NCBI RefSeq assembly: GCF_000332315.1
Contig: NZ_KB235941.1
Span: 254,322 to 307,466, forward strand
Source of the DNA: Prochlorothrix hollandica PCC 9006 = CALU 1027
Lineage (GTDB): Bacteria; Cyanobacteriota; Cyanobacteriia; Prochlorotrichales; Prochlorotrichaceae
Direction of reading: 5' to 3'
Length of the DNA stretch: 53,145 bases
Shown: piece after piece, positions 29,497 to 34,799 of the stretch
Numbering within the stretch: position 1 is the first letter of the stretch
Layout: the number at the start of each line of letters is the position of its first letter
The notes under the pieces: model-generated
What the model saw: only the letters and a program-made list of their open reading frames with translations
Told to the model about the DNA's origin: nothing
Database searches by the model: none
Program-made: the position numbers and the translations under genes

Positions 29497-30888
29497 CTAA
29501 CGGGAACGGCTGCGATCGCGGCGGGGACGGGGACGACCATAGGGCCGATCGTCCGGGTTCCCCCCAGGGCTAGGGTTAGCGGGCCGATCGCCCCAGTCTT
29601 GGGGACTGTTTTGGGGACTGTTTTGGGGACGGTCTTGGGGACTGTTTTGGGGACGGTCTTGGGGACTATTTTGGCGCTCTGCGTCTCGGCTCCAAGCCCC
29701 TAAATCCAGGGGAGGCCGATCGAGATTGGGATCGGGGGGTGCAGTCCCATCATTTTGTTGCCATGGGTCATACCCGCGATCGCCATAGCCTGGGTTTTGA
29801 TAGCTTGAATTTTCATAGCTTGAATTTTCATAGCTTGAATTTTCATAGCTTGAATTTTCATAGCCTGAGTCGCCATAGTCCCGGCTGTTGTCATCCCGAT
29901 CGCCATAACCGCGATCGTCATAGCCCGCAGTATCGTAACCCCGATCGCCATAACCGCGATCGCCATAGCTCCGATCGTCATAGCCCAGGCCATCAGCCCC
30001 TGGGGAACGATAACCCCGCCGCCCCTTGGGTTCGGGTCTGTCGTTGCGACTCCGCGTTTTGCCCCCGCGCTGGGTGCGTTTGCCTTCGGTGTAGTCCCGA
30101 TCGTCATAACCGCGATTGTCGTAACCGCGATCGTCATAACCGCGATCGTCGTAACCCGCATTACCATAACCGCGATCGGGGGTAGCTATATAACCCCGGC
30201 GATCGCGGGCCAGGGGGCGATCGTCGGGAGTGCGGGCCACTTCCGCCAGAATTCGGCGACTCACCTCGATAAACGTATCTCGCCGTAGATAGGGATAGTC
30301 GCTGATCCATAAATCCCGATTAGGCAGGTAAGCATCACTAATCTTGCTGATGCGGCTTAAATTCTTTTCCTTGGACAGCAACAATAACTGAACCGGCATC
30401 CCCGGCAAAAGGGTTTTGTGGTCTTGGTGGAGGGGAGCCTGCACCAGGGTTTTGAACCCTGTTTCATCCCCCACCTCCAGGTTTATGCGTCGCTCCCGGT
30501 TTTCCACCACCACCAGTTCTCCCCGCTTATTCACCGTCTCCTCGGTGCCCACCAAGTCTTCCGTGATATAGACATCCAAGATCTCCCCCTGCCACAGCCC
30601 CCCATGGGGATAGTTGCGGTAGTTGCGGTTGCGCATACTGGCTTCATAAATGGGGAACCACAACCAATACAGTCCCGTAGCCATGCCAAACAGGAACCGG
30701 AAAAAGCCAGAGGTTTCGTTATCCCGTGTAATCGAGCCAATGACCAGCACCACCGTTAAGGCCGTGACGGAAATCAGTAACCGCTTCAGCAATTCCTGCA
30801 CCTTGCCCCAATAGTGCTTGTATTGATCCCCCGTGGCCACGGCGGGGATTAGGGCTTCAACGGTTTTGCGGGTGAGGGGTATGAGCAT
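29497..30888 (-). CDS. cyanobacterial membrane protein with long Tyr/Arg/Asp-rich disordered tail
   Basis: The protein has 463 residues. Residues 1-210 have two membrane helices (about 35-53 and 63-82) and a basic cytosolic domain with a conserved-looking VYITEDLVGTEETVNKRGEL. The type is widespread in cyanobacteria and often annotated vaguely as a phosphate permease-like protein. From about 234 to 463 the chain is low complexity: RGYDDRG and SYENS repeats, then a QDRPQNSP repeat and a basic RRDRSRSR end. The tail is encoded by a 15-bp DNA repeat containing the CGATCG core of HIP1, so it probably grew by repeat expansion. Function is unknown; phase-separating or adhesive behaviour is only a speculation. 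Confidence 0.7.
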   Translation of the reverse strand: MLIPLTRKTVEALIPAVATGDQYKHYWGKVQELLKRLLISVTALTVVLVIGSITRDNETSGFFRFLFGMATGLYWLWFPIYEASMRNRNYRNYPHGGLWQGEILDVYITEDLVGTEETVNKRGELVVVENRERRINLEVGDETGFKTLVQAPLHQDHKTLLPGMPVQLLLLSKEKNLSRISKISDAYLPNRDLWISDYPYLRRDTFIEVSRRILAEVARTPDDRPLARDRRGYIATPDRGYGNAGYDDRGYDDRGYDNRGYDDRDYTEGKRTQRGGKTRSRNDRPEPKGRRGYRSPGADGLGYDDRSYGDRGYGDRGYDTAGYDDRGYGDRDDNSRDYGDSGYENSSYENSSYENSSYENSSYQNPGYGDRGYDPWQQNDGTAPPDPNLDRPPLDLGAWSRDAERQNSPQDRPQNSPQDRPQNSPQNSPQDWGDRPANPSPGGNPDDRPYGRPRPRRDRSRSR

Positions 30889-32786: not shown

Positions 32787-33380
32787 ATGGCTATTCGTCC
32801 CTCCCTCAGCAACCTTGGTGTGGGTATTGGTTTAGTGTTAGTGGTCATTGGCTTTTGGGCCTATGCCACCGAAAACGTCAGCCTGAGTTTACCGGGACTC
32901 TTTTATGGCGGTCCCCTGCTGCTCATTGGCGTTGCCCTGAAAGCGGCTGAACTGAAACCGGTGCCCTTTAGTCAGCCCACTTCTGCTGAGGTGCTGGCCC
33001 TGAGGGAGCAACAGGCCACCGCTACCCAAACCCAAGTCCGCACCGATGTCAATCGTTACCGTTATGGTCAATATGTCCACTTGGAAACTACCCTCAAAGC
33101 CCTAGACCTCATTGTCAAGAACCAAGAACGCCCCGAACTGGATGGGGTGCGGGAAGAAAATCGCAGTGGAGCCTATGCCCTGGTGCTGGAATTTAGCACC
33201 CCAGACACAGCCTTTAGTAAATGGCAGCAGAAGCAGGAGAAAATGACCCGGTTTTTTGGTCCCAATATCGCGATCGAACTGTCGCAACCGAAGGCCCATC
33301 GGGTAGAACTGGCCCTGATTACTACGACAGAATCCCAGCAGCAGCCCAGTCAAGGGCAGTCTATGGCAGTATCCAGTTGA
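32787..33380 (+). CDS. DUF2854 family membrane protein
   Basis: The protein has 197 residues. Two membrane helices (about 9-27 and 33-51, VGIGLVLVVIGFWAY and GLFYGGPLLLIGVAL) precede the conserved ALKAAELKPVPF block (about 50-61), which marks DUF2854. This family is shared by cyanobacteria and plant chloroplasts, and its function is not known to me. A soluble domain follows (about 85-185). The stop codon lies 20 bases inside the 3' end of the convergent Nth-Ung gene. The Gln/Ser-rich tail (SQQQPSQGQS) is the part that overlaps it. Confidence 0.85.
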   Translation: MAIRPSLSNLGVGIGLVLVVIGFWAYATENVSLSLPGLFYGGPLLLIGVALKAAELKPVPFSQPTSAEVLALREQQATATQTQVRTDVNRYRYGQYVHLETTLKALDLIVKNQERPELDGVREENRSGAYALVLEFSTPDTAFSKWQQKQEKMTRFFGPNIAIELSQPKAHRVELALITTTESQQQPSQGQSMAVSS

Positions 33381-34779
33381 TTTCCCGTTGACCCTGAGCT
33401 TTTAGGGCTGCATTGGTTTGGGAAAAGGGCCTACTGCCAAAAAAACCATGGCGGGCGGAGAAGGGAGAGGGGTGGGCACTGGTCAAAATGGTGTGGCGAC
33501 GATCGATCAGACTTTCCTTACGACGGGCATAAGCACCCCAGAGGATGAAAACCGTGTGGGCGCTGCGATCGCTCAGACAGCGGATCACCCCATCGGTGAA
33601 CTGTTCCCAGCCCTGATCCTTATGGGAATTGGCCTGGTGAGCCTCCACCGTCAGCACCGCATTGAGCAATAGCACTCCCTGGGTTGCCCAGGGAGTTAGA
33701 TCGCCTTGGCCAGGGATATTCCCCCCCACATCAGCCTGAAGCTCTTTGAAAATATTGCGCAAGGAAGGGGGATGGGTCATGGCGGGGGGAACGGAGAAGC
33801 AGAGACCCTGGGCTTGCCCGATACCGTGGTAGGGATCCTGACCCAACAGTAAAACGCGGGTTTCTTGGGGTGGGGTCAGGTGGAAGGCGCGGAACACCCG
33901 ATCGGCGGGGGGAAAGACCGGGCCTTGACGACGAGCCTGGGCTACAAACGCCTGGAGTTGTCCAAAGTAGGGTTGGTTCAACTCGTCCTGTAACCAGGGT
34001 TCCCAGGCTCCCAGATCCCAATCTTTGGGATCCTCTGGCCGGGATGCGGGGTCTGAGGCTGACGTTAATAAATCGAGCTGTTGGGCACTGGACTTAGCTT
34101 TTTTAGACGTTGGGGCTGTTTGGAGGGCTGCTTTAAGGGCTGTTTTGGGTGCTGGCCTTACCCCCACTTGGGGACAGAGATCCTGGAGACCACAGCGATC
34201 GCACTGGGGCGATCGGGCAGTACACCGCGATCGCCCATGGTAAATAATGGCATTGCCCCACTGGATCCAGTCGGAGCGGGGTACCAGGGCCGTTAAGTCC
34301 CCTTCAATGGCATCAGCTTGGCGGTGCTGGGTTAGACCTAAGCGCTGGTTGACCCGGATCCCATGGGTATCGACAATGATGCCGGATGCTTGGTTAAAGG
34401 CGCAGTTTAAGACCACATTGGCGGTTTTACGGCCCACCCCCGGCAAACTAGTCAGTGCCTCTAGGTTAGGGGGCACTTTTCCCCCAAAGCGGGCCATCAG
34501 TTCCCCACAGACTGCCTGCACTGTGGCGGCTTTGCGGCGATAGTAGCCCGTGGGCCGTAGAACTTCCTCTAGGGCAGGGCGATCGGCCCCGGCCAATGCA
34601 GCTACATCGGGATAGACCTGGAAAAGCTGGGCAGTAACCTGGTTAACCCGCTCATCCGTCGTCTGGGCCGCTAAAATCGTGGCAATCAGCAGTTGTTCAG
34701 GGGTTTGCCAGTGTAAATCATAGGTGGCATTGGGATAAAAGAGGTTGAGGCGGTGCAACAGGTCAGCAATGGGAACCAT
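33361..34779 (-). CDS. fused endonuclease III - uracil-DNA glycosylase
   Basis: The protein has 472 residues and consists of two complete base-excision enzymes in one chain. Residues 1-205 are Nth: the helix-hairpin-helix LPGVGRKTAN with catalytic Lys118, Asp137 in VDTHGIRVNQR, and the [4Fe-4S] pattern Cys186-x6-Cys193-x2-Cys196-x5-Cys202. Residues about 250-472 are Ung: Asp315 in GQDPYHG, LNAVLTV and His436 in HPSPFSARHGFF. Between them a basic, Ala-rich linker has QLDLL (234-238), which matches the consensus of bacterial sliding-clamp binding motifs. No stop or ATG separates the halves. The two enzymes remove oxidised pyrimidines and uracil; I know of them normally as separate genes. The gene overlaps DUF2854 by 20 bases at the 3' ends. 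Confidence 0.93.
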   Translation of the reverse strand: MVPIADLLHRLNLFYPNATYDLHWQTPEQLLIATILAAQTTDERVNQVTAQLFQVYPDVAALAGADRPALEEVLRPTGYYRRKAATVQAVCGELMARFGGKVPPNLEALTSLPGVGRKTANVVLNCAFNQASGIIVDTHGIRVNQRLGLTQHRQADAIEGDLTALVPRSDWIQWGNAIIYHGRSRCTARSPQCDRCGLQDLCPQVGVRPAPKTALKAALQTAPTSKKAKSSAQQLDLLTSASDPASRPEDPKDWDLGAWEPWLQDELNQPYFGQLQAFVAQARRQGPVFPPADRVFRAFHLTPPQETRVLLLGQDPYHGIGQAQGLCFSVPPAMTHPPSLRNIFKELQADVGGNIPGQGDLTPWATQGVLLLNAVLTVEAHQANSHKDQGWEQFTDGVIRCLSDRSAHTVFILWGAYARRKESLIDRRHTILTSAHPSPFSARHGFFGSRPFSQTNAALKAQGQREINWILP

Positions 34780-34799
34780 GAATCCTTAGGGCAGCGGTG

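Follow-up and report, generated by a model that had tools for sequence, protein, structure and literature searches.

Does the gene at positions 33361-34779 of the window (the whole stretch of DNA that was analyzed, 53,145 nucleotides from Prochlorothrix hollandica PCC 9006) encode a genuine single protein in which endonuclease III (Nth) is joined to a uracil-DNA glycosylase (Ung), and if so, what might the two enzymes do in one chain? Endonuclease III, usually a free protein of about 210-240 amino acids, combines glycosylase activity on oxidized pyrimidines with AP lyase activity. Ung cleaves uracil from DNA by hydrolysis, and an abasic site remains. Base excision repair passes this unstable abasic site between enzymes, and how the hand-over is secured is an old question.

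Two repair domains in one reading frame

The original prediction had placed the gene at 33361-34779 and had given no strand; the coordinates stand, and the strand is minus (Table 1). The plus strand of the same interval contains stops throughout, and many stops also interrupt the other frames of the gene. At its 3' end the gene overlaps by 20 bases (33361-33380) with the 3' end of a convergent plus-strand gene (32787-33380, 197 amino acids). Elsewhere in the window, the minus strand of 29497-30888 encodes a 463-amino acid protein with a long repetitive C-terminal half that is rich in Gly, Tyr, Asp and Arg.

Table 1. Positions in the window of the fusion gene, its domains and its functional residues
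Feature	Position	Strand	Remarks
nth-ung fusion gene	33361..34779	-	472 codons, uninterrupted; ATG start; stop at 33361-33363
AAGGA, likely ribosome-binding site	34783..34787	-	ahead of the ATG; read from the sequence
Endonuclease III (Nth) domain, residues 1-206	34162..34779	-	HhH-GPD, helix-hairpin-helix; PF00730/PF00633
Lys118 codon, Nth catalytic lysine	34426..34428	-	invariant; within LPGVGRKTA (HhH)
Asp137 codon, Nth catalytic aspartate	34369..34371	-	invariant; within VDTH
4Fe-4S ligands Cys186/193/196/202	34174..34224	-	C-X6-C-X2-C-X5-C; PF10576 at 186-202; invariant
Linker, 51 residues (207-257)	34009..34161	-	rich in Ala, Lys, Ser and Pro; predicted disordered
QLDLL, residues 234-238, candidate beta-clamp-binding motif	34066..34080	-	in the low-pLDDT part of the linker
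Family-1 uracil-DNA glycosylase (Ung) domain, residues 258-472	33364..34008	-	NF003589
Asp315 codon, Ung catalytic aspartate	33835..33837	-	GQDPYHG; invariant (alignment A4)
His436 codon, Ung catalytic histidine	33472..33474	-	HPSP; invariant (alignment A4)

The N-terminal half matches the NCBIfam nth profile TIGR01083 at residues 6-193 (6e-65; 218.5 bits against a cut-off of 211.7), and among proteins of solved structure its sequence matches endonuclease III at 4e-39, the best being 1orn/1p59. It has in common with endonuclease III the HhH-GPD fold, Lys118 and Asp137 and the four-Cys iron-sulfur loop, the invariance of these residues having been read from an alignment of the fusion with 20 Nth proteins (A2, 21 sequences in all). 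It differs in being joined to Ung and in its divergence: identity to cyanobacterial Nth proteins, the paralogue in its own genome included, is 50-55%, and in a tree its branch is long and falls outside the canonical cyanobacterial clade, at a position that is itself unsure. Judged by these sequence comparisons, the Nth half is a second, diverged Nth copy, and the long branch suggests that its substrate range may have shifted.

The C-terminal half matches the ung profile NF003589 at residues 258-471 (1.6e-87; 292.9 bits against a cut-off of 223) as well as TIGR00628 (253.5 bits against a cut-off of 185.75), and among solved structures it matches vertebrate UNG at about 1e-71 (PDB 3tkb, 6.8e-72). 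The profile matches of both domains are far beyond chance. The GQDPYHG and HPSP motifs are common to this half and to family-1 Ung/UNG, and in an alignment of the fusion with 17 Ung proteins (A4) Asn373 is invariant as well. Unlike other family-1 Ung proteins, the fusion carries an N-terminal Nth, and the residue that follows HPSP is Phe440, where most relatives have Leu and a few have Phe. Identity is 61% to the Gallionella Ung and 56-58% to one cyanobacterial family, and in the Ung tree the fusion half groups loosely with Gallionella-type proteins, one cyanobacterial family and a planctomycete. The proposal that Nth and Ung share one open frame with both active sites intact is upheld by the profile matches and the invariant catalytic residues.

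An AlphaFold2 model built with 22 homologues has two domains, whose best Foldseek matches are endonuclease III (1orn) and UNG (4uqm). The pLDDT of the Nth domain is mostly 86-98, and in the linker it falls below 50 at residues 213-216, 221-244 and 246-248; on this model the linker is probably disordered.

Integrity, rarity and origin of the fusion

Could the single frame be a sequencing or assembly artefact that merges two adjacent genes? The fusion is known from one assembly; frame +1 has a TAA at codon 207, directly after the Nth domain and near the point where the Nth of some relatives ends; and codon usage in the linker is poor. However, Nth and Ung are read in one and the same frame, so that a single indel could not have joined them, and overlooking a stop would not by itself explain the fusion, as ung would then have no start. 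As predicted, there is no in-frame stop or ATG between the domains, and the stretch that begins at residue 200 and ends at the conserved Ung core has just two in-frame ATG, GTG or TTG codons, GTG205 and TTG267, of which TTG267 lies within the Ung fold. The contig is also 1.36 Mb long, in a 13-contig assembly that is 99% complete and 0.3% contaminated. Since the halves share a frame and the linker has no start for a separate ung, a single-base artefact is unlikely, and we regard an artefactual merging of two genes as very improbable.

In codon adaptation the two halves (Nth 0.69, Ung 0.70) are about level with the neighboring genes, and the linker, at 0.50, lies near the intergenic median of 0.515. 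Of 1,329 stretches of 51 codons taken from neighboring genes, only 25 score as low as the linker. From this we infer that the linker derives from former spacer DNA, the alternative explanation of its low codon adaptation being its odd amino-acid make-up. Because codon usage in both halves is host-like and all catalytic residues are retained, neither domain looks decayed.

No second Nth-Ung fusion was found among 390 genomes of the class, 386 of the phylum and 398 of the Pseudomonadota, or in 25 genomes picked for Ung. None was present in 57 GTDB loci among the matches listed, in a search with a few peptide patterns that a distant fusion could escape. Plasmid and phage records gave no match covering 80% of the query, and viral contigs gave no relative. 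Several candidates were rejected as follows: two loci with a single match over residues 180-469 and 217-469 (L057 and L042) have hisF followed by a separate ung; the long frames around ung in five genomes (G417, G415, G411, G1046 and G803) are upstream open frames without Nth; that near ung in G890 is a separate HhH protein in a different frame; and that in G311 encodes an ordinary Nth and is followed by stops. Topic searches of the literature found no description of an Nth-Ung fusion. The enzyme had been put forward as an unfamiliar one, and the genome, phage, plasmid and literature searches, which yielded no second case, bear this out; the fusion is apparently undescribed, the two families themselves being well known. 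The alkyltransferase-endonuclease V fusion of archaea likewise combines two repair enzymes in a single polypeptide, but its enzymes and lesions are unrelated to those considered here.

The genome is the single representative of its order in our genome sample. It carries a separate ordinary Nth beside an RseP-like gene (L096, 72-81% identical to its best cyanobacterial matches), a separate MutY (L097) and a separate family-4-type UDG (L162), and the first and last of these rule out the fusion as the sole Nth or sole uracil glycosylase of the genome. Since both are retained, the fusion is an additional enzyme. Family-1 Ung is present in 18 of the 390 genomes of the class, this one included, and is free-standing in the other 17, while a UDG-superfamily match was found in all 39 class genomes sampled (of the family-4 type in those read). 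On these sequence criteria the fusion is an extra enzyme assembled from two unusual parts: a second Nth that has diverged, and an Ung of family 1, which is rare in the class. Its two source genes, the diverged nth copy and an ung gained by lateral transfer, probably lay side by side and fused when the intervening stop and start were lost. The same genome (G000) has three tandem CP43-like (PSII/Pcb-type) antenna genes at C1:1523602-1526914 and only four phycobilisome-family genes, a combination that suggests a prochlorophyte such as Prochlorothrix.

Such an origin raises a second question: is the fusion simply neutral, a merger of redundant repair genes through a lost stop codon, with no coupled mechanism and no gain over the two parts? 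Separate Nth and UDG genes are kept in this genome, the fusion is present in one genome only among those searched, and its linker resembles intergenic DNA, all as this explanation would have it. The retained catalytic residues and host-like codon usage of both domains nevertheless suggest continued selection on each, and we consider a neutral merger rather unlikely.

A candidate clamp-binding motif in the linker

The linker contains QLDLL just upstream of the Ung domain. Bacterial beta-clamp-binding motifs follow the consensus QL(S/D)LF, with tolerance (PMC9690074), from which QLDLL, a motif spotted post hoc, departs by having Leu in place of Phe at position 5. The pattern QL[SD]L[FL] occurred in 7 of 10,000 shuffled linkers, a chance of 0.0007. 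QLDLL is not an inherited Nth C-terminal tail or Ung N-terminal tail, as relatives' Nth tails and the N-termini of standalone Ung proteins are without the motif.

The family-4 UDGs of cyanobacteria have a clamp-like Q-x-[S/D/N/P]-L-F motif N-terminal to the catalytic domain in 24 of the 24 genomes whose family-4 N-termini were compared (L162-L165 and L181-L200, the Prochlorothrix genome included), and the candidate motif of the fusion stands a short way ahead of Ung. The variants are QISLF, QIDLF, QMDLF, QLSLF, QINLF, QFSLF and similar, and the family-4 UDG of Prochlorothrix itself has QISLF. The N-terminus of these cyanobacterial enzymes looks like a conserved clamp-binding tail, perhaps an undescribed one, and topic searches of the open-access literature turned up no report of a clamp motif in a bacterial uracil glycosylase.

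In human UNG2 the uracil glycosylase follows a disordered segment that bears a motif for the clamp PCNA. The fusion resembles it in having a disordered segment with a clamp-type motif before Ung, its own motif being only a candidate; UNG2 differs in that it has no second catalytic domain and in that its partner is PCNA and not the beta clamp.

Predicted action and significance

How might the two domains work together? The reading that we favor, and hold to be reasonably probable, is that the gene makes one polypeptide with an N-terminal Nth and a C-terminal family-1 Ung on a flexible tether, which excises uracil and then nicks the DNA. From what is known of the two families, the Ung domain would remove uracil to give an abasic site, the tethered Nth would cut that site as an AP lyase by beta-elimination, and the Nth domain would also remove oxidized pyrimidines independently. 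The linker QLDLL may keep both domains at the sliding clamp, and the whole would work alongside, and not in place of, the genome's separate Nth and family-4 UDG.

The motif allows another arrangement, in line with the original suggestion that both lesions could be handled at the same clamp, in which QLDLL would make the protein a dual-lesion enzyme at the replication clamp, its oxidized-pyrimidine and uracil repair activities serving separate lesions and not acting in sequence. The position of QLDLL in a disordered linker, its low frequency in shuffled sequence, its resemblance to the bacterial consensus and the clamp-like N-termini of the cyanobacterial family-4 UDGs, that of Prochlorothrix included, lend such an enzyme indirect support, but the motif is imperfect at position 5 and relatives have nothing homologous at the same place in their Nth or Ung. 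We therefore consider this arrangement possible but doubtful. Sequential action on one lesion offers a simpler advantage than bringing together two unrelated lesions, since Nth acts on the abasic site that Ung makes; it is the more direct of the two ideas, and both can hold. A more elaborate form of the uracil-excision and nicking enzyme, tethered to the clamp by the linker motif and working behind the replication fork, where it would channel abasic sites from Ung to Nth, is a tentative proposal drawn from the motif, and we would not expect it to be correct in its entirety.

USER-type mixtures, which are man-made, combine a uracil glycosylase with an AP lyase, usually endonuclease VIII. The fusion would be a natural analogue with the same predicted pair of reactions, the USER components being separate proteins, and if the prediction is true it could be a ready-made single-protein tool for uracil-specific DNA cutting. 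With a uracil glycosylase and an AP lyase in one chain, the fusion can be set against its two halves as separate proteins to test directly for channelling, and channelling or clamp tethering, once shown, would raise the importance of the fusion. Beyond this one protein, the motifs of the family-4 enzymes suggest that the uracil glycosylases of cyanobacteria are generally clients of the clamp.
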